Assembly (NCBI GenBank): GCA_029582155.1
Contig: CM055895.1
Span: forward strand, 20,137,004-20,201,003
Direction of reading: 5' to 3'
Source: Panopea generosa
Lineage: Eukaryota; Mollusca; Bivalvia; Adapedonta; Hiatellidae
Length of the DNA stretch: 64,000 nt
The stretch's first letter is position 1. Each line of letters opens with the position of its first letter. Shown here in pieces: positions 2,713-62,300 of the stretch. The translations under genes were made by a program, and so were the position numbers. Under the pieces are notes generated by a model. That model did no database searches. It was not told the origin of the DNA and was given only the letters and a program-made list of their open reading frames with translations.

Positions 2713-3180
2713 GTAAAATTGTCAGGGATTCAAAATGGCTGCCATTGGGAACCATTGGGAGAATTGAAAAGTAACTATACTTTCATTAATAAAAAATAAA
2801 TTGTAGATTTCATTCATGTATAGATTATTTTTTTAATTTAACTTCTTTACAAATTTGATGTGATTATTTACATCAGATGATATACAAATGATATACAAAC
2901 ATTGAGCTGTGACATCACAATTCATTTGCAAATTGGATTCCAGTGCTAGCCCAAAATAAAATGCAGATGGATGTTTTTGTTTTCCTTTTCAAATATGATA
3001 ATTGCCAAATTTGTAGTAACTGTTGTGTAAGAATTGAATTTTGTTAGGTGTTAACAATGATGTTGAACATTCAAATTGCAAATGTGCACAATATTTTCAA
3101 AATGTTGGCTTTCATCTACCTGGTTTTGGGGTATATAGAAACCAATATTTTATGGATGTATAAGCCACATTAATTTTTTA

Positions 3181-3925
3181 TCCCAAATAATGCACATTTC
3201 ATTGTGTAAAAACGGGGCATAATTGATATTGAGGCATTATCCTAGTTATTGCATATTTCATTATGTAAAAAAGGGGCATAATTGATATTGAGGCATTATC
3301 CTAGTTATTGCACATTTCATTGTGTCAAAAGGGGACATAATTTATATCAAGGCATTATCCTAGTTATTGCATATTTCATTATGTAAAAAAGGGGCATAAT
3401 TGATATTGAGGCATTATCCTAGTTATTGCACATTTCATTGTGTCAAAAGGGGACATAATTTATATCAAGGCATTATCCTAGTTATTGCATATTTCATTAT
3501 GTAAAAAAGTGGCATAATTGATATTGAGGCATTATCCTAGTTATTGCACATTTCATTGTGTAAAAAGGGGACATAATTTATATCAAGGCATTAACCTAGT
3601 TATTGCATATTTCATTATGTAAAAAAGTGGCATAATTGATATTGAGGCATTATCCTAATTATTGCACATTTCATTGTGTAAAAAGGGGGTATAATTGAGA
3701 CATTATTCTAGAAAATGCACACTTTGTTATGTTAAAAAGGGGCAAAATTGATATTGAGGTATTATCCTAGTTATTGCACATTTCATTATGTAAAAAAATG
3801 GGCATAATGTCGACATAATCCTAGATAATGCCTACTTCTTTTTGTAAAAATGGGTATAATTGATGCATTATCCTAGATAATGCAAACCTCTGTATGTAAA
3901 AAGGGATTATAGTTGATAAATTATT
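3181..3925. repeat. ~58-bp tandem repeat
   Basis: About 13 units of the type 'attgcacatttcattgtgta...ggggcataattgatat...gaggcattatcctagtt'. Neighbouring units alternate between two variants (cacatttcattgtgt / catatttcattatgt), so the true repeating block is a dimer of ~116 bp. Units degrade towards the 3' end. Confidence 0.95.
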
Positions 3926-4304: not shown

Positions 4305-5028
4305 ATGACCATATGTTTTAATTGAGGACCATTACCATATATTTTAACTGATGACCATTATCATATATATTTCAATTGATGATCATATGTTTTAATAGAT
4401 GACCATTACTATATATTTTAATTGAGGATCATGTTTTAATTGATGAACATTACCATATATTTTAATTGATGACCATGACCATATATTTTAATTGAGGATC
4501 ATGTTTTAATTGATGAACATTACCATATATTTTAATTGATGACCATGACCATATATTTTAATTGGTGCCCGTTACCATATATTTTAAATGGTCACCATTA
4601 CCATATATTTTAAATGGTCACCATTACCATATATTTTAAATGGTTACCATTACCATATATTTTAATTGAGGACCATAACCATATATTTTGATTGGTGCCC
4701 CATGACCATATATTTTAATGGATGATCATTACCATATATTTTAATTGATGACCATATATTTTAATTGGTGCCCCATGACCATATATTTTAATGGATGATC
4801 ATTACCATATATTTTAATTGATGACCATTACCATATATTTTAATTGGTGCCCTATGACCATATATTTTAATTGGTGCCTATGACCATATATTTTAATTGA
4901 TGACCATGACCATATATTTTAATTGGTGCCCATGACCATATATTTTAATTGGTGCCTATGACCATATATTTTAATGGATGATCATTACCATATATTTTGA
5001 TTGATGACCATATATTTTCTTGACCATG
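4305..5028. repeat. ~25-bp minisatellite
   Basis: Around 28 imperfect units built on 'gaccattaccatatatttt' plus aattgat or aattggtgc variants. A block including atggatgatcattacc recurs, showing secondary duplication. Confidence 0.95.
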
Positions 5029-5537: not shown

Positions 5538-5664
5538 GGTGGAAAAGTTCCCATGTTACAGTCACCACTAGGTGTTATGATGGGAAACTACAGCGAATCA
5601 CCATTCACATCACCCCCACCAGCACACATGGGCATTCCACCAGTCACTATAGACCCAAAAACAG
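5538..5664 (+). CDS. TCF/LEF: TCF/LEF exon A (proline-rich region)
   Basis: This 127-nt exon lies between a ctttcag acceptor and a gtaggt donor and runs phase 0 to phase 1. It encodes [12 protein letters not shown], then a Pro/Met/Ser-rich stretch ending in VTIDPKTG. The DPKTG ending matches the same point in vertebrate TCF/LEF proteins (DVDPKTGIPR). It lies between two minisatellites (4305-5028 and 5783-6765). Confidence 0.9.
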
Positions 5665-8600
5665 GTAGGTCAAGGTCATTAAGAGGTCAACGTAAAATAT
5701 AAATAGGATTATCATATACTCATTGCAGATTTTACATAAGCTGTTCATGTAGCTGTTCATCACTAGCTTCTTAGGCTTTGGATCTACATGTAGATTTATC
5801 AGGCTGAGCTTTTGTATTAAATCTATGTAGATTTGTCAGGCTATGGTTTCATACTAAATCTATATTGATTTATTAGGTTATGTTTCTGTATTAAATCTAT
5901 GTAGATTATTATGCTATTGTTTTGTATTAAATATGTGGATTTATCAGGTTATGTTTCTGTATTAAATCTATGTAGATAAGCATGCTATTGTTTTGTATAA
6001 AATCTATGTAGATTTATCAGACTATGGTTTTGTATTAAACCTATGTAGATTTATCAGGCTATGGTTTTGTATTAAACCTACATAGATTTATCAGGCTATG
6101 GTTTTGTATTAAACCTACATAGATGTATCAGGCTATGGTTTTGTATTAAACCTACGTAGGTTTATCAGGATATGGTTTTGTATTAAACCTATTTAGATTT
6201 ATCAGGCTATGGTTTTGTATTAAACATACATAGGTTTATCAGGCTAAGGTTTTGTTTTAAGCATACATAGATTTATCAGGCTATGTTTTTGTATAAAACT
6301 ATGTTTATTTATCAGGCTACGGTTTTGTAATAAACCTATGTAGATTTATTAGGCTATGGTTTTGTTTTAAACCTATGAAGATTTATCATGATAAGGTTTT
6401 GTATTAAACCTATGTAGATTCATCAGGCTATGGTTTTGTATTAAACCTATGTAGATCTATCAGGCTATGGTTTTGTATTAAACCTATGTAGATTTATCAG
6501 GCTATGGTTTTGTATTAAACCTATGTAGATTTATCAGGCTATGGTTTTGTATTAAACCTATGTTAATTTATCAGGCTAAGATTTTGTATCAAACCTTTGT
6601 AGATTTATCAAGCTATGGTTTTGTATTAAATCTTTTGTGCTATATTTCCATGTTATACTTTACATAGATTTATCAGTATATTATTAAATAGATTTATCAG
6701 TCATATTTTCATAGATTTATCAGTAAATCTTCATATAGATTTATATAGATTTATCAGTAACACTTTTATATAAAATCTTAGTTTGCATTACACGTTTAAA
6801 TTTGGTAGTTGCAGGTTTTCATGTATATGATTGTACCAGTTAAGCTTTTATATTAAATATTCACCTTAATTTATCTGACGAAGCTTCATTAATCCTCGCT
6901 AGGTTTATCGTTTTAATTTATTGCATTGTTAAAAGGAAATTTGACTTTTTATTGGTGCTTTTGGGACTTTAAATCTTTACATTTAATTCCATGTAAATTT
7001 ATCAGTTCCTACTTTTGTATTAAATATTCATGTAGGTTTCACATGTACTGTTTTTGTTTTCTCAATAACTTTTGCACAACTACAAATAATATCTGGTTAA
7101 CGTATAATCATTAGTTTTTTTTTTGAAAATAGCAAAATTTAAAGGCAAATTAACTGTAGTTTATATAATGATCTGAAATATAGTTGACGTTATTTGAATG
7201 TGGTTGACATTATTTAAATATTTGCTTCTTTTTGCTTGATTACATGATTTAATAATTTCCTGTAGTAACCTCCTGCGTATTGAATAGGACTTGATATGTT
7301 ATTGACATTTATGATAAACGTAATCTTAAATTGCCCGAAAGAATGAAATAATCCATTTTAGTACAGTTTCCTATAATGCTATCTGGAACGGTCGAGACCA
7401 TTGCTTTCATAGAGGGCTATTACATTTGTGCAATCTCATTCAAGTAAAGCTGGCTTGACTCGTGCCATGGTTAAATAAATTTGATTTTTTATCATGTTTC
7501 GGCATAACGTCTGTATACTGAAGGGAGAATGAGCGATAGAATGCTATGAAAACTCTATCCTGCATATTTACATTACGGATACATTGACATTGTTATTATT
7601 TATGGCTCTGTTAATTGCCTCTGTTACATTTATTTCGGAAACATATTCTTAAGTGCATATAAAATGTTTATAGATCGCAGATAATGCTTTGTCTGTGTAC
7701 AATGCAGGTATTGTTGTGAATGTGCTTCCATACATGAGAATGCGTCACACTATGCTGCCAGAAAAGACAGAAATCAAATAAAAATTGTATTATTAATGAT
7801 GATTTAACGATTCAGTAAGCTAGAATCTCGTTAGTTAATATTGATGTATGTCTTGAGTCAATTAAAATGATGTGCCACGCTGTGTATGAAATGAAATACA
7901 TAACAGAACGAAGAATGGAGAAGAAATTATGGGTTTGGACAAATGCATATTTCTTAAATTAATGCAATGATAATGATAGATAAACAAAATATTTTCTAAA
8001 AAAAAAATCTGGAAAAATTGAAAGTAAATTCATGCATCATCAAGAAATCAATATTAATAATTTCTATTATCCAAAACAATGTGGTCATTTATGTACACAC
8101 ATCAGTGTAATTAATGTGCAGATAATTATGTGTTCTATGAAAAGATGACTTTATGACATAGTGCAATATGTCATTTTAGTTAAAACACAAATAAAGAATG
8201 GTTCAATTTGCAATTTTTTTATTTTTTTTTGTCTTTGAGACTTTGTATAGTGCAGAGGTTTTTGGCTACAGTTGATCTGTATATCCATAAACGTCTGCAT
8301 TACAAAGGTATACTGTATAAGGATGCCAATGTATTAAACACATATAAATAAACAGCAATGGTCAATTGACGGTAAATTGAGGATTTTGGCTACAGTTGAT
8401 CTGTATATTCATAAATGTCTGCATTACAAAGGTATACTGTATAAGGATGCCAATGTATTATACACATATAAATAAACAGCAATGGTCAATTGACGGTAAA
8501 TTGAGGGTATACTGTATAAGGTTGCCAATGTATTAAACACATAAATAAACAGCAATGGTCAATTGACGGTAAATTGAGAGTATACTGTATAAGGTTGCCA

Positions 8601-9372: not shown

Positions 9373-12300
9373 CATAATAATACTTTTTGTTTATAGAAGG
9401 TAACATATTATGACATAATACTATTGAAATCAAAGTACTCATCATATTTTCAATGTGGTCTTCCACAAAAACGTTAAGAACAACACAGGGCTCTTGCTTG
9501 CACTTTTAGGAATGGGGTTGGGGCCCCTAGCTTTGGGAAAGTTAGTGTTATTTTTAAAGAAATTGGGAAAATTACATAGCACAGGTTTCTTCAACATATG
9601 AAACAATATTATTATATGTAATTTATTTTGAATGTATAAAAAATGTGATGTTCTTATAGAAGACTACATTAAAAACATAATATTAAAAACTTTTTCCCCA
9701 AAACATTTTTTTTTTGGTTTCTTTGCATTTTGAAATTGGGAATTTTGTTATTTTGGATTGGGAAAAAAAGATGCTATTTGCCATTGGGAATGAGGCTGTT
9801 ATTCAGCACAAAAAATGGGCAAACGAGAGCCCTGCAACATTACAATATAATAAACATCAATATATTAAAATATACAACTGTACTTATGACAGTCAATATC
9901 AGTAGTACATTGAGTGACTGGCACAAGTATAGTTTTACAAATCTTCACTCCCCGGCTAAACACAACATTAAGAACTGGAAGTTTTTGAAATTTTCTTTCA
10001 TGCAAATATCTGTTGCACTGTCCATCTGTTACCAGTGTAAGGCAATGTACAATATTATACAGTTTCTTTACTTACTGCTATTGTGGTTTGGCTGCAGATG
10101 GCTGAATGCTGTCATTTAGATTTATTTCCATATTGGGTTAACTTTGTTGGTATGTAAGTAATATGTTCTTGGCCAAAGAATGGGAACTCTTCACAAAAGA
10201 AACTATTTATATTCTAGAAATTTGTATAAATCATATTTAGTTCAGCCCAGTTATCGTATATAGGTAGGCAAGCAAATGTAAAACCAAAACAACTTGCTAA
10301 TTTTGGTCTGAGCAATGTTATTTACAATATTACATTTAGTAATTCTACCTGGATCAAATGTCAATTTAAATAGATGCCAAGACATTTTTGATTGGATATT
10401 TCCAATCCTGATTACTTTCAGTCATTTTCTGTTTAATGAATTGGGGGTTAGAGATCACAAACAATATAATACAAGATTGTTAATAGCAATCAAAATTTTA
10501 ACATGTGTCTAATCGATACACATAAGTTTGTGTGACTTTGATTATATTTTGTGTTTTTCAGGTCTACCACGTCAAATATATCCATATCCATCCCCAGCAG
10601 GCCAGTTTCCCCCTTCATTATACCCAGATGTGCAATGGTAAGTATTCTCAGCTTTTTCATAAATTAGAGATGATTATTAGTTAGTTAGTTTTGGTAATTA
10701 GTGGAATTAGTTAAAAACTTACTTATTTTACGTTGATTTTTACAATTAAGTTATTACGACTTATACAAATCACGCTCAAAATCTTACTGGGTAGAACCAG
10801 TACTAAGCATATTCGGAAAAGGTGTCTTGCTCAAGGACACCACAAATAACTGTGGTAGAGGATCGAACCCATGACCCTCTGATCATGGGGCCGATGCGCT
10901 ACCACTGGACCATGCGCTCCACAATTAGTGGAATTGTAATGTTGTCAAACATAAAATCTTTGGTATGTGAGGGTATGAGAATATGGTTCATGGGCAACTA
11001 ATTTTAAACCCACCCCACATGTATTTCTTCTTTAGATGTTTTCCTCCTTGAATTGTAAAATGAAAGTAAGAGGGGAATTGAGGCAACACAATTGTTATAG
11101 GTTGTTATTTACAAAACAATTTCCGTAGACTTGCATATTTAATTAAACGGTATAGTTCCTATAGGTTCTCGCCAGAAAAAATTATACAAACTACAAGTAA
11201 GTCTCTAGATTACCATTGAAGACAACCGTAAGACCAGGCTTTATTATCCAGAGATGATAATAAACCAAATAATGTTGTATTGTACAAACTGTTTTAATTA
11301 ACACTGATACCTGCATTGCACATTATCAAGTAGACGTGAGAGAAGTTTGGCAATACCAATGTGCTATATGTATTGTTTGGCCCTTTTTTTTAGTTTCTTT
11401 TTTTTTACTAGTTGAATAGGCTTTCTACAAGCATCAGAAGATGATAGATCTCTCAACATGGCATGATTGTCTGTTTTCACTATTATTTTTTTTTTTTTTA
11501 TCAGAATGTTGATTTATTGTAGAACACTTAGTTTTGATAATATCTTCCAGTTTTATTTCTATCAACGCAACTCTCATAAAAGTGTCAACAGTAATAGTGG
11601 TACCAAATATTACAAGCACTTGGAGGATAGAAGATGTTTATACCTATATTTACTGCTCATTTACATAAATACTGCATTTTATAGTGTAATATTCCCGTAG
11701 AAAGAATGCATGTCTGTAATGTAATGGGGTGGTAAAAATCTCATCAAGGGTTTTAATGTAGGTCTGTTTTTCCCCCGGTAACCTTGGTAAATAGTTATAT
11801 TTTTCTTTGCGAATTAATTAATTGCCTGCAAAAAAGCACAGAACAATGAACACTTCTTTTGCGTGTAATTAATGGAGTTTGTTAGCTAACAATAAAAGTA
11901 ACTTATTATAAATATATATATTTTATTATTTAGACGCATTCAGGTGTATGATAATTAAAATGAATTTGTGAAATACTGTAATAATATAACAATTAAATTT
12001 TAAAAGCCTTTTTTTATATCACAGAAATAGGTGCCGTTGCCAAGCAGTTGTGTTTATATTTATTCCTATCACTGAAATGTTTGTTAAAAATTAATGAATA
12101 CTGTGGTGTTTATTCCAAACATGTAGGAATGCATGTCTGGTATGAAATTTGGAGAAAATAGGCAAATTTTTAAAAATGACTACTTCCGTATGTAATGAAA
12201 TTGTCAAAGTTAGTTTTGTAATTTGTTTGGTAGTGACACTGGCAGTATGCAAACCTCTGAGTGACACTGGCATGACATTAAGCAAGTGTCTGAATGACAT

Positions 12301-15300
12301 TGCTCTGACATGAAGACTGGTCTTGTCACATTATTTTACTGTGTTTTCCATTATGTGCCCACCTCTGTTATCTAGTAATTGCTGTTAATGAATAGTTATC
12401 TCGGAATATCACATTTGGATTAGAGCCATAGATGGTTTATTTATGCGTGACAAGAGTTTAAAACAAATTATCAAAACCTGTTAAAAGCGGAAGAATAATT
12501 GTATAAACTATGATGGTAAAAAAAAAAACACAGAAAAAATAAATCCATCTTATCTGACATGTGTAATAGAGTGAGGATGAAATTATGCATATTGACTGCA
12601 AATATTCTATAGCAGTTTACAGCAATTGAAATTATAATTTAAATTTACATTTGATAAATGAAAATATTAATTAAAATAAATATTTGGTGTCCTTGACATT
12701 ATTTATTATCACTACTAGTTGCCCACACTAAATTCACCAGTATCTTCATAAGAAGTTTCATAAATATTATAAATAATATGTTTTTATGCCCCACCTCCCC
12801 TGTCTGACCGTTCGTTTTTTCATCCATCCACATGGAAAATTAGTTTTCTTATCATTAATTTCTAAAGGGGTCAATGTATTTAATTATTATTTTGTGTGTA
12901 TAACTAAAAATACAATCCTTAAGTTTTGATATTTGAGTTATGGCCCCTTTTTTTCAATATTTTTCTGTATGTTTCCGATCAGTAGCGACCATTGTGTCAA
13001 AAGACACATTTCTAGTTTAAATTAGCATGAACATTATATAGGATCAATGAAGCACCTGCAGGTGTCTATTGTTCATATGACTTGCAAGGTTAATGAAAAT
13101 TGACCCCAGGTTCTCTTGGTGGCTGTAAAGTAAGGAAACACAGGACCTCTGTTAAATATTTAAACAGTGAACCGGGAAAGGATTATTTTTAATTCAAAAA
13201 AATGTGTTGTAGTAATAAAAAAAATATGTATATAGTATGACAGTATTCTATTTAAAATTGTTAGCAACAACAGTTATTTTATATATGTTTTAACAATATA
13301 ATTTTTATTCTCATTATGATTTGTACATTTCAGGCAGCGACCGCCCGGTTATCCCATTTCCTCAGGTGCCTTATGTGGTCCTTATCCACCAACATTTATA
13401 AATTCTACCGCCCGGTATCCACATGGGTTGTTTCCCCCAGGGGTGCATCCGGGTATGCCTTACCCCATGTCATCGGGACCAAAACAGGAGGGCGGCGTCT
13501 CCGACAATCATAGGTACAAAACTACGAAAAAATTTGATTGTAATTCTTTCTGTGGTTTTGGCCTAATCTATATAAAGTTTTTCTGTTGTTTTGACATAAT
13601 CTTATATTAATATTTTCTGTATTTAACATAATAGGATATTAATTCTTTCTGTTGTTTTGACATAATCTGATATTAATTCTTTCTGTTGTTTTAACATGAT
13701 GTTAAATAATTCTTTCTGTTGTTTTGAAATTATCTAATATAAATCATTTCAGCTGTTTTGACATTTCTGTTGTTTTGAAATAACCTGATATAAATTAATT
13801 CAGCTGTTTTGACATTTCTGTTGTTTTTCCATAGTCTGATATAAATTCTTTCTGTTGTTTTGACATACTCTAATAATATTTCTTTCTGTCGTTTATTTTT
13901 AAACATAATGTTATATTAAATGAATTGGTTTCAATAAAATTTGCAGCCAATTTAAAATGTGCCAATATGTCATATCATAATTTACTACAATTCCACTGCT
14001 AAATGTGCCACATAATATTGCACTGATATGTGTTTTAAGTGAGTGTTTTAACGCCAATCTGAGTGATTTACTTTATTGATATTTCATAGGCATTTTATTC
14101 AGAAACTCATATTAGCTGTTAATAGTTAATATGGCCTGGAATTTTATTTTTTCCGGCTTCCACCGGTGGCTCAAACAAATAAATGAATTATTCAGAAGTG
14201 TAGAGACAAAAATATGTAGCATTTAGACAATTTGCATTTTGTGTTGTCATTCACAATTGATTATTTCGGCTCTTCATATATCCACAAAATGGCAACATTT
14301 TATATTTTTCTCATTTTGCTGACTGCATTATAGTATTGTATTATGTAAAGTGCAGGGTGCAGTTTGGCAATTAGTCTGAACAGTAGATAAAACGTTTAAC
14401 CATGTTTTATTTTTGCAAGTTAGGGTGGGGGGAACCATTGCAGCATTGTTTATTGCTTATTTTATTTGTATAATATGAAACTTGATGGAAATGTTGAATT
14501 GTCAAAACAAGTGCTGATAATTGAATTGTGCTTCATTAATTGATCTTGCGTAGTTTCTGTTTAATTGTCTCTGAATTGAAAATTTGATAACATTCCCTTT
14601 GACTGCTGTCATAAGAGACAAGCGATCGGTTGCGGTACTAACAGCGCTGTTAATTTCATGATTAAAGTGGTTGTTTAGTACAAAATTAGTGTCGAAATTC
14701 ACTTGAAATTCTGTTTGATGATTCGTTTGATGTTTAAGTTAGACGGAAAAAATCTATGACACTTCCTTCCATTGATTTGCACCGAGACAGCTCCAGAATG
14801 GTAGCCTATTGTTTATTTAGACCCAAATCAATAGACGTTAATTTTTGTTGCCATCTCGAATTAAGTACTACTTTTTTCAGCATTTGAGATAGCGTAGCTA
14901 TTGACCAGAGTTATGATTAATTGTCATTAGAACTGTCCAATATTTCAAACCGGTAGAGATGTAATGGGAAATTAGCGGTATCAAGAAACATCAAGATGTC
15001 TTGGCCCGTGGTCATAAATATACACACCGTAAATAGGGATTCACTAAACAATATGTTTTGTTGAAATGGACTCCATCAAAGTCATTATTGTCTGTGTAAA
15101 TACCTGATCCTTGCACTAATTGAAAGGAAATGAACACGAGAAATCGTACCTTTATTGAGATGTATCAATGATGGTTAACTAATGGGATTCAAGATAGTAG
15201 GTTTATGATAAGTCAGCTCCATTTGCCCATGTATAATTATTGCCCATACATAAGTCTGCAATGGAAAGATAGGTAACAAACTATGTTCATATATATGTCT

Positions 15301-18300
15301 GTATAACTATTTAACACTAGGCATGTTTGATTATTTAACAGCAAAAAAACAAAAGGCTGAGTAAATGTTTGAGAGGCATACTGTTTTTCTAAATTATTGC
15401 AAAACTTTTATTTGATACTTGTTAGTGTACCAGGGGCCTCAAGTCTGGTGTAAGGCTATTAGATTTCTCTCCCTTTGATGAGAACTCTTCAGAAGTTTTG
15501 ATGTAAAAGCCGTTTGTAAAGCCTATGATTCTTGTATATGATGCAATGGTAAGCTTTGAACATTGGGAAGTCTTTCTTCTTGATGCTCTGAGGATTGTAG
15601 GAAGAAAAGATTGGCTTGTTTTAAGGGGTATCCTTTTATTGGTTTTATGTCTGTTATATGACTTGGTGTTTACCATTGATATTAGTGTAGTTTGTTATGT
15701 CCACATCATGAAAGACAAACTTGTGTTTTGAAGTATTTTCGTCCTAATTGCTATATTGCAGTAATTCTGCCAGTCATTTTACACAGTCTTTTTGACACAT
15801 GAGCATGCATTATATGTTACTTGCCACTGGAACGAACATCCCAGCTACAACTTGGATAATGAATAACATATAATGACTTTTTTCATTACAGACATGGTTT
15901 TAATGAAGGCGGTGGAAATCAGAGTCCACAGCCGGAGAAGAAAAAGCAGCCTCATATAAAGAAACCTCTCAATGCATTTATGTTATTTATGAAGGAACAA
16001 AGAGCCACTGTTGTAGCTGAGTGTACATTAAAGGAATCAGCAGCAATAAACCAAATATTAGGGAGACGGGTAAGTGTCTATCTTGTCATCTGAACATGTC
16101 TCAATTGCACCCCACCCTTTAAAGATATACAGCAAACTGTTTATGGGAACCTTCGACAACAAGGCAAGATCTTAACTATTGACCCATTGGTGCAAAAAGA
16201 GATCAAGTGTTTTCTTATTTCATATGCATTTGGTCCCTTATTGCACCAATGGGACAATATGTGTTCATGTGAAAGCATTGAAAACATTAGTTGTGGTTTT
16301 CTTAAAGAAACCATTGCTATGAAAGGGAGACAACTCTCAACAAGTTTTTAACGCAAAATTTATTGATGTATGGATCTGTTTATTAAATTTAACTATTATT
16401 TTTTAAATAAAATATTAATCATTACAAGCAGTTAATACAATAAGACTGTATACGATTTAAACATACTTGGTTCATGAGTAAAATCTGTCTAACGTGTATT
16501 ATTGAAAGCCTGTAATGTTTAACTGTTTCTTTTTATTTAAAACTTCATGTACATAAAACTATATTTGAATTTGTGAACTTTGCTGTAGTCTATCTAATGT
16601 CTATCTAAAATAGTGGCGTGAAATCAGAATGACATGTTTACTGAGTAGAAGGAAAATCTGGTGCGGTTTACTTGATAGAGATGTTGTAAAAAAATACTTT
16701 GTAGTCGAAAATAAAAAAAGGTTGTATAATATGGTATAGTCGATACATTACAACTTCAAAGGAGAGGCACCCCCATGGAGCCTGACAAACAAACAATTAT
16801 CCAATAATTACGTCTGCTGTTTCGTGTTGTTTGGTATATAGAAGGTCTGCTGCAGCAGTCATAGTCTGTAGTGTTGAAACATAAAAGGGAGATCAGAAGC
16901 ATTGATTGGCAGTCTGAATATCTCAACAGTTGATCATGGACACGCCTTTCCTTTCCTTTGGAAGGCGCCTAGGAGTAAGACTTATTTGTTTGATTCCAAT
17001 CCATTGACATTTCCTTTATATGTTTTGGGGTAACATAATCTCGGTACAGAGACACAATTTAGTCTAGTACAAAGTTGTCTGCCTGACACAAACCAGTCTC
17101 TCTAACACAAATCATAGAACATATATTTAAACGACTACGTTTGGGAACATTTTTAACATGTGTGTAATGAAAACAATGTTAGGGACATTACAATGTGTAT
17201 AATGAAGACTGTTGGGTCATTTCAACATGTAGGTAATGACTATGTTTATGTTACATTGAAATGTATAATGCAGGGTGTGTAAATGACTATGTTTGGGGAC
17301 ATATCTAGCTTTATATGCTCTGTTTTTCAGTGGCATTCGTTAGATAGATCGGAACAGGCCAAATATTATGAAATGGCTAGGAAAGAAAAAGAATTACATC
17401 TACAATTGTATCCGGGGTGGAGTGCAAGAGACAATTACGCAGTTCATGCTAAAAAAAAGAAAACACGAAAAAAGGACCCTTCCCAACCGGGAGAAAAAGG
17501 TACCAGGCCTGATGATCGCTATTCGGACAATCCAGCATTTGGTAAATATAAGAAGCAGGAGGCATGCTTGCATTTCCGTGTTGAGTGATCACATGTGAAG
17601 GGTATGCGTGCATAATAAGGAATCCTGTTTGTATTGATATATGTCCGATCAGAGTATTAGGTGCCATTTTGTCATTGGTGACCTTGTTGATTGAAAAGTG
17701 TCACTGGGCGTGATTGTCTCTTCCTACCACGATATAATTCAACCCTACTTGTCAGTTAGATTCATCCAGAAAGAGTTATAAGGGTATATGGGAAATGCTA
17801 TTTCCAGGTACTAGTGGGAACCAGCGCTACTGCCTTTATACAGTTAGTATGGTTCCCCATTCATACCTAGATCAATATTTTGAGATCAAAATCACAATTT
17901 TGCCGGAGTATTGTGGGAATTCATAATACCGAGATGTGGTCATACACAGTTACTCACAAACTTGTGATTTTGAGTTTTGATTTCCTTCTGGTATTGTTTG
18001 GTTCTAATACCTTTCTTTCCAGCATATGGTAAAACCAGATTGCTATTTAAATTAACATGGAGATGATATTTCCTCCGTTTTTCAGTGGCATTCATTAAAT
18101 AAGGCTGAACAAATTAAGTATTATGAAATGGCTCAGAAAGAGAAAGAGTTGCATTTACAATTATACCCTGGTTGGAGTGCAAGAGACAATTACGCTACCC
18201 ACACTAAAAAGAAAAAGAGAAAAAAAGATCTACAATCCATGGAGTTACAAGTTAAAGGTATGCAATCTGAAGATTGCTTTTCGGACCATCCAGCTTTTGG

Positions 18301-21300: not shown

Positions 21301-24300
21301 GTGTTATTTATAAAATCAATAACCACAATGATAGCATACAATACAATCATCCTATTTCATTCAATACAGAATTACAAGAAACTTTTACGTTTCATAATTG
21401 TTGGTATTAATTGACAACAGTCCAAACATAGTTAGAAATACTGTTCTTCAGTTGTAAACACTGCCAACATTATCTACATGGTTTGATGTACATCAGATGA
21501 TAGATAATGAAAAAGTTGAGTTATTCTGTAAATGAAATTCTATTGGACCTTGTCATACAAACAAAAAAGACACTTAATGAAACAATTATCAGTTCAGATC
21601 TTAAATGAACAGATTATCAGCAGCTATACAGAGAAGACTTGAGTATGAATGTCTTTTAATGTGAAAATGAATTTGTTACAAATTCTCCATACTTGCTACT
21701 TGCTCTTGTAACTTGTTGTTGAAGATTGTAATTTCTGTTATTTGCATGTCTGCTCATCTTTCTTTAAATGAGTTTTATAATGTTCTATATAAAACAGTAA
21801 TACAATACCATTAACAAACAATTTCATTTTAACAGGTGACTGTACAAATTCCAAAAAGTGTAGAGCGAGATATGGTATGGACCAACAGAAAAATTGGTGC
21901 AAGCCTTGCCGGTATGCTAACAAAGCTTTTATATTTACTTTATGTACATTATTAGAATTGGTAAATAAACATTCTTTACTCGACATTTTTTTGAACAGAA
22001 ACAATGTTAAGACAACCTTTTGATTGTCAATTGAGTCGACCTTCTTATATTTCCACACACCATTGTTTTGGAGAGGAGGGAGTAATTATAAAATTACTCA
22101 CATAATTTCACTATAGACAAATATGTTGTTTTCTTTGCAGGTAGTAAGTTTGTTTCAACAGCCGAGAGGCACAGAATTGTCATTTGTGTGTACACTGGTC
22201 TAGAGAACTCACCAAAGTTTGTTGTTTGACAAATCTGATGAAAATTTAAGATCGTTTCCTTGTAAGAAGTCTAATTAAGCATCAATATTGTTGATGATTT
22301 TTATCTGTTACAGAATGTCTCTCTGTTGAGGATATGGGATGGTGCTTGTATACCTTTATCGCTTTTATTTTTTGGCAAATGGAAACTTGACTTTTGTTGT
22401 TTTTTTCTGGTAATATTTATTTATTTAAATTGAGACCATCATCTTTAAATAAATCGGATTTTTGTTTAATCAATTGATATAAAATTTACCAAAATTTAAA
22501 TATTTTGCAGATTTGTCATTTATCTAATAACAATTAATGGTGACCTCATATTTGTCGAACAACAAATTATATTATCCCTCATTTGTTGTTTTGGTGAGTT
22601 CCTGAACCTTACAGACATTGTGTTTAATGAAATTGACATGTTTGTGTTTGTCACTTTCAGGACGGAGCAGACTAGCGATCACACTTTAGATATTAAAATG
22701 AGTAAATCAGATGAGGTATGCCATCTATATATGCAAGATCTGCATGCCGATTGGTGGCTATAAATAATGCTTTTGTCTGCTGCTGCTGCTGCATTTTCAT
22801 TGGCTGCGTAATATTTGCATGATGTCCTACTTCCTTTGAGCAAAGAAAATGAATGAATATAATATTTAATTAAATAAAACATGTATGGATGTATAATATT
22901 TTATAAAACAACAATACTGATTGGCTGACTAATATTTTAAAAAATGACATGGTTGATTGGATGGATAATATTTTCTAAAACAACAATGCTGATTGGCTGG
23001 CTTATATTTTCTAAAACAACAATGCTGATTGGCTGGCTAATATTTTATAAAATGACATTGTTGATTGGATTGAGAATATTTTTATGTAACAACAAAGCAG
23101 AATGGATATGTTGTTTGATATTTTAACATAAAATCATCTGATAGGTCAGAAATGAATCCTCACCCCATTCCTTGTAGATGCCCAGCCCAGAAAATAAACT
23201 AATGCTTCTGTAACGCTTTGCTTTATGTATATATGTATACATGTATAATCATTGCATGTCTGACAATATCTAAATCCTGTATTATAGTATTAATTTGTAT
23301 TATTTTGTATATGTATTATAACTTGACTTGCAAAGATACGCTTTTGTATAAATGTTGTTTTTTTTTTGTTCACTGTGCTTTTTTTGTACTGTTACCAGTG
23401 TCAATAGTAGGTCCAGTTTGCTACCATGCTTATAGTTGGCAGTCATAGTTGTTTTATTGTATATTGGTATTCAAGAAATGATTTTGTGTATAAATTTTTG
23501 TTTTCATTTCGCTTTTTTTTTTGGTATAACTGCTTTATATTTATATCCTTGCTAGTGTTTTGTATTAGAAGCTGAAAAATGCACAACATATTATTCAATA
23601 TATTATCTAACCTCATCTCTCTTTTCCTGTTTCCTTAATCATCACATTAATAACTGTTTACCAGACCATCAGATGCCATTCTTTGTAGACTGCAGCATCG
23701 TCTTTCAGTAGAGTTTCGGCCTCCCATGTGGAAGGTCATGGGTTTGATCCCTGGGTGGGTTATACAAAAACTTGAAAAATGGAACTTGAAGATTCCTCGC
23801 TTGGCGCTCAGCATTTAGAGGATAGTTCTAGGTCTGGTCAGCCAATGTCAGTAAAATATGAATGGGTGGGGTATCATACCAGGTGTCTAAGGCATGATAT
23901 TCCCAGTTTGGCAGAATTCAGAATACTGTCTCAAGTAGACAAGTCAGGATATGAATGAAATGGTGAAATAGATGCTAAACACCACACAATAACATTTTTG
24001 TATTTATGTAACCATGGATACAACTAGACACTGATCATTAACGTTCATTTCCATTTCTGTGGCATTTGTTATGTCTGTATTGTTTATTAATATGTCTGTA
24101 GAATTAACACTGCGCCCCATCATTAAACATGGAAATACTAATATGTGTCTGTTACGTTGACCTTGATTTGTCTGCATCAGTCAAAAGCTTGATCATTTTT
24201 AAGATTATCCAAGAGAGAAGACACTTCAAGCATCTTGGTGATAGTTGTTGTAGTATGTCTTGTGAGATGGACAATTATTGCTGCAGTTGCTTCTTATACA

Positions 24301-27249
24301 AGTTTATCTCTTTGGGTCCCTGATTAAGGGTCAGTTTGAATATGGACAATTGTTGCTTCTGATACAAGTTTATCCCTTTGCATCCCTGATTCAGCAAATG
24401 TTCAAGATTGTCATCTTTCTTTGTCAAGATGAATATTGATGTTTATTATAGTGTCACTCGTACCGGTAATCGCAGGTTTTTCAGTGAGGCACTGGATGTT
24501 TAGTGAGGTTGATTGAGATATTGTGTAGTTGTGTTGCTTCATTCCGTCTGGTTGTGGAGATCGGCATCTCTAAAGTCGGCTTCATTCCGTCTGGTTGTGG
24601 AGATCATACGGGTATCTCTAAAGTCGGCTTAGCAGCGTATTGGAGTGGAAGAGCATCAAACCCAGAAGTGGGGGTTTGATTCCCCGCTATGGCCATCGAT
24701 TCAGACACTTATCCACATATACTTAGTACTGGTTCTACCCAGGGAGACATCAAGTGTGATATATGTGTTGTAAGAACTTGCTTCACAGTCTATGTAAAAT
24801 AAATAAGGTGAAACCATGTAAATAAACAGTATTTCTGTAGAATCATTCTAACAGTGTAAATAATTATTATCTGCACTCTGTAGAATATTTTATTTGTATG
24901 TGTACATGTTTTAGTCATTGTGTTTTGTTTTAACCAAATTTCAAATTTCAGCCAGATTAGATGCCAGATGAAATAGTCTCCATGCTTGATGTTATTGATG
25001 TTATGCATTATAGTTACAGTCTCTTGCATCATGTGATACACAGATATAATCTCTCTTGCATCATGTGATACACAGATATAATCTCTCTTGCATCATGTGA
25101 TACACAGATATAATCTCTTGCATCATGTGATACACAGATATAATCTCTCTTGCATCATGTGATACACAGATATAATCTCTCTTACATCATGTGATACACA
25201 GATATAATCTCTCTTGAATCATGTGATACACAGATATAATCTCTCTTGCATCATGTGATACACAGATATAATCTCTCTTGCATCATGTGATACACAGATA
25301 TAATCTCTCTTACATCATGTGATACACAGATATAATCTCTCTTGCATCATGTGATACACAGATATAATCTCTTCCATCATGTGATACACAGATATAGTCT
25401 CTTACATCATGTGATACACAGATATAATCTCTCTTACATCATGTGATACACAGATATAATCTCTCTTGCATCGCTTTACATTTTAGTTTACATTAATCCT
25501 TGTGTAATGAGATGTGTATAAGTTTTATTATCGTTTGCATTATTCTATAACATTTGTATTCGGAGAGAGAGAGATTTGAAGGAGTTTAACCTGTACTCAA
25601 TATTAGACTTTGATCTTATTCTTGCAACCCGTGACCCCGGTTAGCTAATTAGGTAGGGCGCTGCCTATAAATCAAGGGGTTGTAAATTCGATTTCCCGCC
25701 CAGCCACAATCTCTATGATGTTTGATAGATAACATTGCATCTCATAGTCATTCACCTCTCACCGTTGATCCAAGTGGGAAAGTTATCGTTACTTGCAGAG
25801 ATGGGTGTGCTCGAGTACTGGTTACCTGTCCGGATCCCAGGAAAGAATAGTTAAGTTAACTTGATTGTATAAAAATGATGATAGATATTAGTTTAGTCAT
25901 CTACTGCATTGGAAAGTGATTGGGTTTGAAAAATAATGCAAATGATAATGATAATTGGAAAAATAATTTCATCTGGGACAACTTGTCATTGTTGATTTGA
26001 AAGTTATGACGGAATACAAAACGGAGATTCAAAACCAATTGTATCCAGTTGTATCCTGATATGTTCAGATGTCAACTGAAGGGCGGGTTACCATGTGATG
26101 AAATTAATTTTCCATTAACTAATTATAATTGATTTAACAAGCTTAGCATCTTTTATTTTGCAGTTTTGTCAAATAATTGCTTATTTTTGTGATGTATAAT
26201 ATTATGTTTAGATGGCCTAGCTGTTTGTCAAATTAAGAATAACAGTACTATGACATTCATATTAACAAACTTTTGTTTTAAGTTCCCTTAATTACAAATG
26301 TAGCAGTAAATTTTGACACTGTCTGTCGGTCATTTACCAAATGCTCTCTTTTTGCAGAGTTTATTATTTTACAGAAAACAATTGTAATATTTCTATACAA
26401 TACCAATTTTGTTAAAATTATATTTTTCTGTTGTTTTTTTTTAATTAGATTATTGTTATTGAAATGTTAATGTGCCAGAGCCGTTCAGTTTTAGTGGATA
26501 TAAATTTTTCTTCATATAATTTATGCTCTATTGTCAAAAATGAAATACTAAATGTAGATAAATTTTACAGGAGGAAGAAAAGATGCATTAGGATATATGA
26601 GGATGGACCATTCACAGATGGGGAGGACGGACACATGAGTGATATGAGTGCTCATGACAGTGACTCCATGATGGGCAGCCCTGCTCAATCTTCTGCCAGT
26701 GAAGATCTTCTTTGCACTCCGCAGAAGTCGCACGTTGGTCGTGGCGGCATCAACTCGCCACTTGTTCATGACACATCTCATAACTATTCAGACATTGATG
26801 TTACAATGAAAGCACATGATGATGTCCTTCCAGCTCATAAATCACCATTTTCTATGGTTAAATCAGAAAAAATGTTTTCATCAGAGAAATATATCTCACC
26901 ACGCATACATTTTCCTACAGCCTCATCTCCTGCATCGTCGGTGAAATCAAGTGAGTTAAGTAGATCATACAGTATAGAATCACTTGCCAAATCGTCAGTG
27001 ACCTCAGAGTTGAAGGACCGTGAAGAACGCATGGACCAGAATAAGTCATTTGATTATGCACTGTCTCCGCTGTCAAGTCCTGGCGATTTTAGTCATCAGA
27101 ATTCTCCAAAATTCAGTTTGTCCACATTCGCTGAAGACATCAACAAAAATTTGAGTCCAAAGAAGAAGTCCAGTGGTTTAAATAGCTCATTCAGCATCTC
27201 TACTCTGTCTGTTTCAGCTGTCACACCGTCTCGTGTGCATTGTACATGA
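5538..27249 (+). CDS. TCF/LEF: TCF/LEF (pangolin/TCF7L2-like) HMG-box transcription factor, 3' portion, multi-exon
   Basis: The encoded protein is the DNA-binding partner of beta-catenin in canonical Wnt signalling, acting in the nucleus as a repressor with Groucho/TLE and as an activator with beta-catenin. The model joins 5538-5664, 10562-10637, 13334-13513, 15892-16069, then either 17331-17541 or 18086-18299, then 21836-21911 and 26571-27249. Every junction is AG/GT and in phase, giving 508 codons (509 with the second HMG exon) to the stop. In order the domains are a proline-rich middle region, the HMG box (opening [12 protein letters not shown]), a lysine-rich nuclear-localisation stretch, the C-clamp and a serine-rich tail. 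The N-terminal beta-catenin-binding exons are not in this window; the first exon here starts in phase 0 with GGKVPMLQ, which aligns with the vertebrate NKVPVVQ region. Family assignment is very secure. Which vertebrate paralogue it resembles most is not meaningful, since invertebrates usually carry one TCF/LEF gene. Confidence 0.95.
5783..6765. repeat. 38-bp minisatellite
   Basis: About 25 units of 'atgtagatttatcaggctat' followed by ggttttgtattaaaccta. The middle units (6400-6560) are nearly identical and the edges diverged. It starts 118 bp after the exon A donor. Confidence 0.96.
6766..8256 (+). other. TCF/LEF intron A-B, unique part
   Basis: AT-rich intronic DNA with no supported feature. 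Short open frames here are chance. Confidence 0.5.
8257..8781. repeat. Tandem repeat with long (~123 bp) and short (~75 bp) units
   Basis: Five units share 'ggtatactgtataaggatgc', aataaacagcaatggtcaat and tgacggtaaattgag. Units one, two and five also carry a ~50-bp front part (ggctacagttgatctgtata), while units three and four lack it. Confidence 0.93.
8782..10561 (+). other. TCF/LEF intron A-B, 3' part
   Basis: No gene. It holds a (TAG)n microsatellite at 9342-9372 and otherwise unremarkable AT-rich DNA. The open frame at 9730-10119 has no recognisable protein features. Confidence 0.5.
9342..9372. repeat. (TAG)n microsatellite
   Basis: Ten uninterrupted TAG units. Confidence 0.97.
10562..10637 (+). 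CDS. TCF/LEF: TCF/LEF exon B
   Basis: This 76-nt exon follows gtttttcag and ends at a gtaagt donor, phase 1 to phase 2. It completes the glycine of KTG and continues [20 protein letters not shown] to PDVQW. The proline/tyrosine-rich composition corresponds to the family's context-dependent regulatory region, between the beta-catenin-binding domain and the HMG box, where Groucho/TLE binds. Confidence 0.88.
10748..10920 (-). mobile_element. tRNA-derived SINE, family A
   Basis: Read on the minus strand, the head has an A-box (tggtccagtggtagcgc) and a B-box (gggttcgatcc). A body follows with gtggtgtccttgagcaagac and the tail motif 'cttagtactggttctaccca'. Related copies are at 24630-24790 (+), 52330-52495 (-) and, diverged, 62335-62460 (-). 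Confidence 0.85.
10921..13333 (+). other. TCF/LEF intron B-C
   Basis: Beyond the SINE at its 5' end I see no supported feature. Confidence 0.5.
13334..13513 (+). CDS. TCF/LEF: TCF/LEF exon C (proline/glycine-rich region)
   Basis: This 180-nt exon follows tttcag and ends at a gtacaa donor, weaker than the others, phase 2 to phase 2. It reads [20 protein letters not shown], continues through [19 protein letters not shown] and ends [11 protein letters not shown]. The KQE segment matches the 'VKQE' just before the HMG box in vertebrate homologues. A 35-bp minisatellite starts within 30 bp of the donor. Confidence 0.88.
   Translation, partial: AATARLSHFLRCLMWSLSTNIYKFYRPVSTWVVSPRGASGYALPHVIGTKTGGRRLRQS
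13540..13925. repeat. ~35-bp minisatellite next to exon C
   Basis: About 10 degenerate units of 'ttctttctgttgttttgaca' followed by taatctgatattaa. The array begins within 30 bp of the exon C donor and is pyrimidine-rich on the sense strand. Confidence 0.9.
13926..15891 (+). other. TCF/LEF intron C-D, unique part
   Basis: No supported gene or repeat. Overlapping short open frames on both strands near 15422-15731 look accidental. Confidence 0.5.
15892..16069 (+). CDS. TCF/LEF: TCF/LEF exon D (HMG box, first half)
   Basis: This 178-nt exon follows ttacag and ends at gtaagt, phase 2 to phase 0. After an acidic/basic linker (PEKKKQ) it encodes [19 protein letters not shown], then [19 protein letters not shown] and RR, which is helix 1 and helix 2 of the HMG box. 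It is nearly identical to vertebrate TCF/LEF here ([20 protein letters not shown]). The HMG domain binds the minor groove and bends DNA at Wnt response elements. The box is cut after GRR, and its second half comes from one of two alternative exons. Confidence 0.96.
16070..17330 (+). other. TCF/LEF intron D-E1
   Basis: The only structure I see is a perfect 13-bp inverted repeat at 16183-16195 and 16241-16253 (cccattggtgcaa / ttgcaccaatggg), 110 bp after the donor. The last 200 bp have loosely repeated 'aatgactatgttt' phrases. Confidence 0.6.
17331..17541 (+). CDS. TCF/LEF: TCF/LEF exon E1 (HMG box second half, version 1, plus basic tail/linker)
   Basis: This 211-nt exon follows tttttcag and ends at gtaaat, phase 0 to phase 1. 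It begins [20 protein letters not shown], continues [16 protein letters not shown] (the rest of helix 2 and helix 3), then the lysine-rich AKKKKTRKK nuclear-localisation stretch and a linker ending SDNPAFG. It joins to the C-clamp exon at 21836. A possible internal donor after 17499 (AAAG/gtacca) in the same phase would shorten the linker. A homologous copy lies 544 bp downstream. I infer mutually exclusive use of the two copies. Confidence 0.93.
18086..18299 (+). CDS. TCF/LEF: TCF/LEF exon E2 (HMG box second half, version 2)
   Basis: This 214-nt tandem paralogue of E1 has a tttttcag acceptor, a gtaaat donor and the same phases (0 to 1). It begins [20 protein letters not shown], continues [20 protein letters not shown] and KKKKRKK, then has a linker unlike E1's ([16 protein letters not shown]) ending SDHPAFG. 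Over the first 37 residues only five differ (D/N, R/K, S/A, A/I, R/Q). Silent positions have drifted widely, so this is an old duplicate under protein-level constraint and not a recent copy or pseudo-exon. A gtatgc donor inside it (exon end 18257) is in the same phase and could give a shorter linker. Confidence 0.92.
18786..19027 (+). mobile_element. tRNA-Leu-like SINE
   Basis: The head reads gctgccgagtggtctaagga (class II tRNA A-box), then ggtaggttcgagttccgc (B-box), as in tRNA-Leu with its long variable arm. The body contains 'agtttgccagttactggcgg' and cagtaaaactggatatgcca, and ends in an A-rich tail. Copies in inverse orientation are at 58660-58890 and, truncated, at 32578-32740. Confidence 0.9.
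19028..20610 (+). other. TCF/LEF intron E2-F, 5' part
   Basis: AT-rich intron with no supported feature. Confidence 0.5.
20611..21240. mobile_element. Hairpin-headed dispersed element with 147-bp tandem core
   Basis: It opens with a near-perfect hairpin at 20611-20644 (TATACCCCC ... CAAAC gaa GTTTG ... GGGGGTATA). Tandem units follow, beginning cttgtccggagca at 20684, 20831, 20978 and 21125, an exact 147-bp spacing. Each carries 'tactggatggaatttcatca' and acagagttattgccctttga. The hairpin plus short tandem core recalls bivalve pearl/Helitron-like non-autonomous elements. A related hairpin is at 53649-53684. Confidence 0.85.
21836..21911 (+). CDS. TCF/LEF: TCF/LEF exon F (C-clamp, first part)
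   Basis: This 76-nt exon follows tttaacag and ends at gtatgc, phase 1 to phase 2. It encodes [20 protein letters not shown] then CKPCR, the first three cysteines of the C-clamp. The C-clamp is a small zinc-binding module that contacts GC-rich Helper sites and extends TCF target specificity. Spacing matches vertebrate TCF-E isoforms and fly pangolin (KKCRARFGLDQQ..WC.PCR). The fourth cysteine is in the last exon. Confidence 0.95.
22205..22601. mobile_element. MITE-like foldback element upstream of the cassette exon
   Basis: The ends are inverted copies of gaactcaccaaa (22205-22216 and 22590-22601). A second inner inverted pair, gtttgttgtttgacaaat (22217-22234) and its imperfect complement (22550-22567), has two mismatches. 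No clear target-site duplication is visible. It ends 59 bp before the candidate exon at 22661. Confidence 0.6.
22661..22715 (+). CDS. TCF/LEF: Candidate alternative cassette exon inside the C-clamp intron
   Basis: This 55-nt stretch lies between a good acceptor (tttgtcactttcag) and a gag/gtatgc donor matching that of exon F. Only one frame is open, and it is the one set by exon F: the leading g completes CGG (Arg), then [18 protein letters not shown] follows. Its length shifts the frame, so the last exon would be read EEEKMH and stop at 26589-26591. Because that stop is in the terminal exon, the message should escape nonsense-mediated decay. The protein would lose the fourth C-clamp cysteine, the RRKKRC block and the whole serine-rich tail. 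Vertebrate TCF7L2 also varies its C-clamp/E-tail by small alternative exons. Inferred from sequence only. Confidence 0.5.
22880..23080. repeat. ~36-38-bp minisatellite
   Basis: About five units of 'caacaatgctgattggctgg' plus ctaatattttctaaaa, beginning 165 bp after the candidate cassette exon donor. Confidence 0.9.
23692..23990 (+). mobile_element. tRNA-derived SINE, further family
   Basis: The head contains tttcagtagagtttcggcct and a B-box (catgggtttgatccctgg). A ~200-bp body follows, ending gatgctaaacaccacac, a typical invertebrate SINE tail. Confidence 0.7.
24630..24790 (+). mobile_element. tRNA-derived SINE, family A copy
   Basis: It has an A-box-like tagcagcgtattggagtgga, a B-box ggggtttgattcccc, and the family tail 'acttagtactggttctaccc'. 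It is preceded at 24540-24625 by a direct duplication of cattccgtctggttgtggag. Confidence 0.75.
25018..25472. repeat. 32-bp minisatellite
   Basis: About 14 nearly identical units of 'tctctcttgcatcatgtgat' plus acacagatataa, some missing 'tc' or carrying tacatc for tgcatc. High uniformity suggests recent expansion. Confidence 0.97.
25628..25865 (+). mobile_element. tRNA-derived SINE, family C
   Basis: The head reads ggttagctaattaggtaggg (A-box) and ggttgtaaattcgatttcc (B-box). The body has ccgttgatccaagtgggaaa and a tail of ctcgagtactggttacctg. Minus-strand copies are at 34955-35175 and 44688-44815 (truncated), with a fragment at 54700-54755. Confidence 0.85.
25866..26570 (+). other. TCF/LEF intron F-G, 3' end
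   Basis: AT-rich intron DNA before the last exon; nothing else supported. Confidence 0.5.
26571..27249 (+). CDS. TCF/LEF: TCF/LEF terminal coding exon G (end of C-clamp and serine-rich tail)
   Basis: This exon follows ttttacag; its first g completes the arginine left open by exon F. It starts [20 protein letters not shown], supplying the fourth C-clamp cysteine and the basic block. About 210 residues of low-complexity Ser/Pro/Asp/Lys-rich sequence follow (for example [23 protein letters not shown]), ending SRVHCT and TGA. The tail looks disordered and has many SP sites that could be phosphorylated. I see no PxDLS-type CtBP motif of the kind found in vertebrate E-tails. The open frame runs upstream to 26464, but phase and the C-clamp homology fix the exon start at 26571. 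Confidence 0.94.
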
Positions 27250-59300: not shown

Positions 59301-62300
59301 CTTCTGTACAATATCAGTATATTTTTTGTACATATAGAAAAGTTACTTTCAACAGACAAATACTTAAAACATCACATAAAAACTACTTTCTCTTGAGTAG
59401 TTTGAAACGATTAGGGAGCAGTTAGGTGGTGCATATGAAATGAGCTCCATTTTCAGTATCCTATAGTCGCCCTAGAGACTAAAAAATCAGTACAACAATA
59501 CTAAAGCAAATTGATCTATAATTTATATAACCCATAGTATATTTTTGCCATCAACATATAACTGCACAAAAAAAAAAAAAATTCCCAGTAATACTGAAAG
59601 GTATCTAACAAACACATACCAGCACACTTCTGTTCGAGTACACTCGTCTGCTCCTACTAATTTCTGCCACTGTTCATGCGTTTCTTTTAAGACTCTCAGC
59701 GCAAATTCCTATTTCAATACAAAATACAAGTACATTACAATTGCCTTAAATATTTCTTTTAACTGATAACACTTTTTGACTTCTCCGATCCATATTGGTG
59801 AGGGTACATTAGTGGGAAGCATTTGTTTGTGGGAAACTGGTATGCAAAACAGAAATAATCTTTGAAAATCAAGGCGAGACTTCGTCTCATGGAGAACAAC
59901 ACACCAAGTATTGTGCAATTTTTGAGGGCATATACATTTCTGCTGTGGAAAAAACAACTTTAGTACTAACATTGCTATGGTGGAAAAAAAATTTTAATAT
60001 AAAATTCTAGCAAACATTAAAACCAACAAGACCTGCAGTATAAATCAAAGGCCTGACAGCCTGAGGGAAGGCTCACTCCTTCAGAGTTTTGCCCATCAAA
60101 TCATCTTTCTTTAATTTCTTGTAAGAATATGATTTAACAATGAGCTCATTAACAACTAGCATCATAATATACTTTTCTTCATTGACCCTGTTTGGAAATA
60201 ATCAAAATGTAGAATTCACACTTGCAACGCCATTTTGAAAATAACATTGACAGGTTTATTACTTTTCGCAAACTTTAGGTACCAGACTCATCCAACTAGG
60301 TCTCTGAAAAAGCTATGACTGCAAATCTAAATTTGGATGTTAAAAGATTTAAACATGCAATGAAATGAAGATGGAATGAAAAATGAAGGTGCTATCAAGT
60401 CTTAAAAGAAAAAGGTTAATGGACAAACGACAGCCGGCTGACAATTTACCAAAAAATCTAATATTTTGTATGTTTTTCAAAACTGTGGTACTAAAAGTTT
60501 TGATTTTATAGCACATGAATAAAAAACAAAAAAAAAACAAATTCATTTAATAACGTAAACGTTAATAAAAAATGACCGATTTCAGGAACGGCACAAACAT
60601 TGGCCTTTACGCGAGTTCAAATAGATATTTTGAATAAACAAAGCAAGTATACTAATTTTTTAAAGTATTCCAGCCTTTCTTTTTATAATATAAATAATTC
60701 TGAACCAAATGTCAATCTTGAATCGTGGTACTAAGACCACAATTTCAATTTTTACTTGCATTTGATAAAACAATATTGGCGGCCATATTACTAAGCACTG
60801 AGGACATTGAAGGGGATAATTTTTACCATTGCTATACTAATGCGCAGTAGGCGTCTGCATTTCATGTCATTTTAGTGGAAATTGTATACTTTGATAACCA
60901 CATATTTGAAGCTCTCTGTTTGATAGAACAAAAATCGCAATACAAATTTCCTCTGCTATGGCAATTGCATTTTGAAACTTTTGAAACTATTTTATCGGTC
61001 GGAGGTAATGAAATTGCCATCAACAGTATAACAAAGGCCACAGAACAAAAATGTAAATGGGTCACCATGACTATAGAAGGCATCGCTATGCTCGCTTTAC
61101 AATGAAACTGATAATACCAATCACTTACTCTGTTTTTAGCTTCTCCATCGAATGCAAACTTGTTTGATGGTTTTCCATCTGGAATTTTATAAACTGTAAA
61201 CCATTCCCTAGTGGCCTGAAGTATACAAAATAACAATATCTTATTTTAAGGAACATCAGGCAGGACTGAAATCGTATTTTACTGTGGTCCCCAATCAATT
61301 CAATCTTTATATCTATGCACATGTAATATGAAAATATTTATCTCAAAGTATTACTTTCTATGCACATGTAATAATATGAAGAAACTCACCCTCATATTTT
61401 CTTGTTTGTATTACATTTTTTTGTTATGTACATGTATATCATTCACATATTTATTTTACTTTACAATTGTGAGGATTATCTTAAGACAGACGGAAAGAAA
61501 TACATTTTTTATTAAATTTACAAAAATGAAGTGTTTCTGAACCTTTAAATCAAAAGTATAACTTGTTATCTCCACTATCTAATTTAGACGAGAAACATAT
61601 ATATTGTTTTTAACCAAAGAGACATACATGTAACTATCTTTAAAGTCATCTGGCCGGAAAGCTGCATTTATACATCAAGAGCTGAAGCATAGACTGGATT
61701 TCTATTTTAAAATATTCATAAATCACTGGATGGGAACCCAGTGATGATACGCACAACTAGACTTCATACTACAAAGTTTTATCACAATGAGCATTTAAGG
61801 AGGCCTAGTGCGAAAAACATATATGACAGACAGGACTGATTTGGCACAAATAATGTCCTTAGAAAAAGCGAGACATTTTTTTTTAATGATGCATTCAAAA
61901 TGGAATACTTCCGGCACATTTTCTACCACAAATTCATATTTGTAACACCTGTGAAGTATATTGAACAGAACAGCTAATCCAGCACATGACATTTCATGTA
62001 CCCAACATTTTTTGTATTTTCTCAAAAAGTATCGAACCAATTGCCTTGAAATTTGGACTTGAATAAGAACAATACTCTGTCAAATCAATACATTCTTGTC
62101 TGTTTGTTGCATATACAATTTTTTTTATAACACATCAATATTTTGACGAAGATATTAAAATACAAAAGTTGAAGGTTAGCTGTTCCGTTCATTATATAAT
62201 TTGGTACACTTCAAGTTTGTGCCTGCTGTGAAGCATATCTAATTTAGTACAAATCGGTATACAACAGTTTATACTTATATATTTTAGCCTGACTCAGATG

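Follow-up and report, generated by a model that had tools for sequence, protein, structure and literature searches.

The window analyzed here, a 64-kb stretch of Panopea generosa DNA, carries on its + strand the 3′ part of one TCF/LEF gene (Table 1). Its coding exons join in frame into a chain of 508 residues with exon E1, or of 509 with exon E2. The two HMG boxes completed in this way are TCF-type, scoring 77.9 and 78.4 bits against the Pfam profile HMG_box; both find LEF1 (2lef) as their best PDB match, and in both versions a basic tail follows the box. The C-clamp, with four cysteines, is divided between the exon at 21836 and the one starting at 26571. Among the best 120 matches listed, the closest named relatives were bivalve proteins, from Mya (P0007, 87% over 84% of the query) and Mercenaria (79% over 98%). 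An exon for beta-catenin binding lies ∼84 kb upstream of the window start (G000:C2:20053287 onward); it was located by tblastn on the upstream DNA, through similarity to the N-termini of Mercenaria, Dreissena and Platynereis proteins. Searching the genome with the Pfam profile CTNNB1_binding gave no match, but the controls likewise gave none.

Table 1. Features of the TCF/LEF gene in the 64-kb window; the in-frame chain takes either E1 or E2.
Feature	Position	Strand	In chain
Upstream coding exon	5538–5664	+	yes
Upstream coding exon	10562–10637	+	yes
Upstream coding exon	13334–13513	+	yes
Common exon, HMG box first half (HIKKPLNAF...INQILGRR), phase 0 end, donor CGG/GTAAGT	15892–16069	+	yes
E1, HMG second half, basic tail KKKKTRKKD and linker, 211 nt, phase 0 to 1	17331–17541	+	E1 or E2
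E2, alternative HMG second half, basic tail KKKKRKKD and linker, 214 nt, phase 0 to 1	18086–18299	+	E1 or E2
Stop codon, in frame only upon E1+E2 splicing	18100–18102	+	
Common exon, most of C-clamp	21836–21911	+	yes
Probable cassette exon inside C-clamp, 55 nt	22661–22715	+	
Common last coding exon: remainder of C-clamp, C-terminal tail, stop	26571–27249	+	yes

Other features were noted in and near the gene. A possible alternative first exon (L003:61-276, at G000:C2:20127064-20127279; MWDSLTKTSAGVAGCKEC...SLDHHHSA) lies some 10 kb upstream of where the window starts. Spliced in phase to the exon at 5538, it would give a TCF that lacks the region for beta-catenin binding. Over its first 68 residues it shows 87% identity to the N-terminus of Mya protein P0001, which is shared with P0007; it is possibly a conserved, dominant-negative start. 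Inclusion of the 55-nt exon inside the C-clamp would give a protein ending ...SDEEEEKMH and lacking the fourth C-clamp cysteine. Short tandem-repeat arrays were seen by eye in the introns at 3180–3900, 4320–5000, 5830–6700 and 25030–25470. On the − strand an open reading frame at 60862–61236 had no Pfam match; we take it to be reminiscent of a soluble inorganic pyrophosphatase exon.

E1 and E2 each carry the coding sequence for helix 3, for the basic tail and for the linker that leads to the C-clamp. Both begin directly after the codon for the last R in INQILGRR, opening with WHSL in phase 0, and both linkers end in AFG in phase 1, so that either exon can enter the same C-clamp exon. Their acceptors are both AG (...GTTTTTCAG) and their donors are identical (TTG/GTAAATATAA), while clear likeness of the flanking introns is lost beyond ∼10–20 nt. 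A reading made from the sequence alone had described these starts, ends and splice motifs, and had proposed that the two are duplicated, mutually exclusive exons; our exon reading agrees with the description throughout. A protein search of the whole genome (1.47 Gb in 39 contigs) with E1 found only the E1 and E2 places at E ≤ 0.001, with three first-look candidates scored.

Frame arithmetic bears directly on exclusivity. At 211 and 214 nt both exons have lengths of 3n+1, so exactly one of them is needed to keep frame. Joining E1 to E2 produces ...AFVAFIK and then the stop codon, with 197 nt of E2 still to follow, which is the outcome that the sequence-only reading had foreseen for double inclusion; such messages would be expected to be degraded. 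Skipping both exons also shifts the frame, reaching a stop at 26636 and leaving a half-box protein. As that stop falls within the last coding exon, the message would not be expected to undergo nonsense-mediated decay. Both off-frame products could serve a quantitative switch, in which regulated double inclusion (a poison arrangement) lowers TCF, or double skipping removes DNA binding, and the two full proteins are equivalent. We think this unlikely, since equivalence does not predict that E2 should depart from E1 where relatives hardly vary, as described below. Retention of the intron after E1 (17542 onward) or after E2 (18300 onward) gives short open tails, and would produce proteins without a C-clamp, like the Platynereis X7 isoform as given in the accessible text of PMC5996498.

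Comparison of the two copies points to purifying selection on both. Over the 37 codons of the HMG half there are 22 nucleotide differences in 111 nt, 15.5 of them synonymous and 6.5 not (dS 2.25, near saturation; dN 0.077). The binomial probability of at least 15 synonymous changes among 22 would be ∼1e-6 without selection. This excess argues that E1 and E2 have both long been kept as protein, and the near-saturation of synonymous sites argues that the pair is old. The linkers present another picture, with dS 0.375 and dN 0.421 over few sites; this part is apparently free to change. Its last portion, together with the donor, is oddly similar between E1 and E2, although the sample is small, and gene conversion might account for the likeness.

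It could be supposed instead that one duplicate, E2 (or E1), is decaying and seldom if ever enters the message. E2 does carry changes at two near-invariant helix-3 positions, as decay would allow, but near-saturated synonymous change beside only five residue changes in 37, the lack of a stop codon, the intact splice sites and the E2-like halves of gene models from Mya and Dreissena all speak against it, and we regard it as very improbable. We conclude that E1 and E2 are very probably a mutually exclusive exon pair, on the strength of the frame logic and of selection on both copies and, less strongly, of the relatives described below.

The five residue changes, a number that matches the sequence-only count, are D/N at position 5, R/K at 6, S/A at 7, A/I at 10 and R/Q at 17 (45, 46, 47, 50 and 57 in the 2lef numbering of LEF1). 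We compared them with the 90 distinct second halves matching our pattern among 286 retrieved proteins. Position 10 is A in 73 of these, S in 15 and I in none; E2 has I. At position 17, R is found in 84, K in five and Q in one, and E2 has Q. E1 thus looks canonical at both helix-3 positions and E2 departs from the family at both, whereas in the basic tail it is the E2 version that is the more usual. The single other half with Q at position 17 is in P0208, an ENA contig, whose second-half exon also has K at position 6. Our best guess for the consequence is altered binding through the HMG box and C-clamp, given that the E2 substitutions fall at two near-invariant helix-3 positions and that the linkers differ. 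In fly TCF, mutation of the C-clamp raised binding to the HMG site up to five-fold, according to the accessible part of PMC3896468, which suggests that linker changes between HMG box and C-clamp could matter.

Further half-box exon pairs were sought in protein models of other animals. The protein searches listed the best 120 of 5883, the best 120 of 5240 and the best 120 of 264 matches. At least 30 of the 286 proteins retrieved hold two full second halves by pattern, a count to be read with the fact that the retrieved lists favor high scores, which two-copy models raise, and that clustering at 90% identity may hide isoforms. Among the matches listed, these 30 are one Mya arenaria model (P0001), 27 models from 25 named arthropod species, and two others. 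A profile scan added partial second copies, for example in P0016, P0035 and P0037. In two insect models with a single version (P0244 and P0252), the A version is joined straight to the C-clamp.

The sequence-only reading had proposed looking for a second WHSL exon in other mollusc TCF loci. The Mya arenaria model P0001, labelled low quality, has tandem second halves, the first a shortened E1-like copy and the other E2-like; it looks like a gene model forced to hold frame across two exclusive exons. Elsewhere the types occur singly, an E1-like half alone in Mya P0007 and an E2-like half alone in Dreissena P0039. Preference of the E2-like copies for the window E2 is slight, at 70.9 bits against 70.1 on E1 for Mya and 75.1 against 72.8 for Dreissena. 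The linker end ...PAFG is found in the window E2 and in the E1-type exons of bivalve relatives, and is absent from the Mya and Dreissena E2-like halves. In two proteins, P0005 and P0177, from contigs of at most 1741 and 2374 bases, sequence of the first half, the E1 type and the C-clamp is already joined, together with an alternative end, as in a spliced message; they are best read as transcripts of relatives. Their ends resemble the product of including the 55-nt exon.

First halves also come in two versions in some molluscs. Two first-half copies occur in Ostrea P0003 and Elysia P0006, with a partial second one in Batillaria P0012, and Pomacea P0048 and P0053 each hold a different first-half version. 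In the 64-kb window there is a single first-half exon and we found no second one.

The recurrence of second-half pairs in bivalves and arthropods, with the exon position alike in both groups, raises the prospect of one ancient protostome duplication common to both. In a tree of 49 second halves over 52 columns, however, the 29 spiralian second halves were separated from those of arthropods (89/82, not starred), and a long branch held Tigriopus B alone. The window E2 grouped with a single Mercenaria row, Mya E2 and Dreissena E2 (94/73, not starred). Six groupings were put to AU tests on the 52-column alignment, with p values uncorrected for multiple testing. Joining the three bivalve E2 rows to four insect A rows was rejected (p-AU 0.0096), as was joining them to four insect B rows (p-AU 0.0031), crustacean copies being outside both of these tests. 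The window E2, moreover, carries the linker end of bivalve E1-type exons. A single protostome duplication is therefore highly improbable in our estimation, although gene conversion could mislead so short a second-half alignment. A common origin with the insect pair is rejected by the two AU tests, and these rejections support a separate origin of the bivalve pair.

Within bivalves the same columns are permissive. The window E1 and E2 as one clade (p-AU 0.361), the E2 group without Mercenaria (0.477), a clade of Mya E1 and E2 (0.216) and a clade of all five bivalve rows (0.162) were none of them rejected, and the 52 columns fit both one shared bivalve duplication and separate ones. In a larger spiralian tree, from which P0265 was left out when the pattern missed its cut start, 30 of 45 inner branches were left open. 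There the window E2 again lay near Mercenaria, Mya E2 and Dreissena E2 (84/82), with P0208 adjoining on a long branch.

We examined how exclusion might be imposed. Pairing of RNA from intron to intron, in 200-nt tiles of introns 1 and 2 and the first kb of intron 3, did not exceed shuffled controls: duplex energies were −78.0, −84.6 and −79.4, against means of −80.6, −86.4 and −81.6 (12 shuffles each). Intron pairing was accordingly rejected as the exclusion device in the stretches tested. Steric or minor-spliceosome exclusion is not favored either, as the intron between E1 and E2 is 544 nt and the sites look U2-type.

The explanation that best accommodates these results, to which we assign a probability of roughly 85%, is that an old and mutually exclusive E1/E2 pair, separate in origin from that of arthropods, supplies a canonical and a tuned TCF. 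In a bivalve TCF/LEF gene, the exon that carries helix 3, basic tail and the linker from HMG box to C-clamp would have been duplicated in tandem. The spliceosome would pick either E1 or E2, while messages with both, which leave frame and stop early, would be lost to decay. Two full TCFs would result, with the beta-catenin arm, first half-box and C-clamp in common and with differing helix-3 surface, basic tail and linker. E1 would give the canonical TCF and E2 the tuned version, which may differ in affinity, DNA bending or cooperation between HMG box and C-clamp, for use in particular cells or stages. The pair would be old, and its origin distinct from that of the comparable pair in arthropods.

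With half of the box open to choice, a single gene would be able to read Wnt targets in two different ways. Because such a half-box recurs in separate lineages, convergent evolution can be put to the test here, and the natural variation in helix 3 and in the linker between HMG box and C-clamp is material for work on TCF recognition of two-part DNA sites.

The sequence-only reading knew of no precedent for duplicated HMG exons in molluscan TCF. Our literature searches, which covered few subscription papers, likewise gave no publication describing a pair of HMG exons in a molluscan TCF, and a term search of the main text of an oyster survey of transcription-factor splicing, as accessible, did not find TCF (PMC12111275). 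Absence of precedent is nevertheless only partly right, given the Mya model, the arthropod pairs and a published annelid pair of first-half exons. The annelid gene is Pdu-Tcf of Platynereis dumerilii, where PCR on cDNA and genomic sequencing showed that either of two exons can encode the first half of the box. As far as the accessible text describes it, Pdu-Tcf resembles the window gene in being one TCF gene with two alternative HMG exons, each combining with the C-clamp, and in having further C-clamp variants; it differs in that the beginning of the box is duplicated there, and the second half, basic tail and linker here (PMC5996498).

The arthropod TCF/pangolin pair, in at least 27 models from 25 species, likewise consists of two versions of the same second-half exon, but is of separate origin by the tree test, and divergence of the insect B copy has taken its own course (PDWSSRAN..., GKKRKRK). 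Drosophila pan may have alternative HMG exons. Ostrea, Elysia, Batillaria and Pomacea share with the window gene the possession of two HMG-half versions in a molluscan TCF, but it is their first half that is duplicated. Outside TCF, tandem exon duplication with alternative use is also found in a bivalve in the exon 10 pair of Crassostrea virginica AOX, although this is exon 10 of 10 in an unrelated gene, for a mitochondrial oxidase, in the text accessible (PMC5589949). Vertebrate TCF7 and TCF7L2 isoforms also differ in DNA-binding parts, but vary the C-clamp tail, and HMG-half exon pairs are not described in the accessible portions of the sources (PMC4999783, PMC4267635).

The window pair thus seems to be a further version of a half-HMG exon device that protostome TCFs have acquired more than once. 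We lean, if only slightly, toward a broader proposal, that protostomes, which usually have one TCF gene, repeatedly duplicated half-HMG exons: the first half in annelids, oysters and gastropods (perhaps once, ancestrally), and the second half in arthropods and again in heterodont bivalves. Each such gene would then provide the Wnt effector in two DNA-binding versions, splicing taking the role that in vertebrates falls to four genes.
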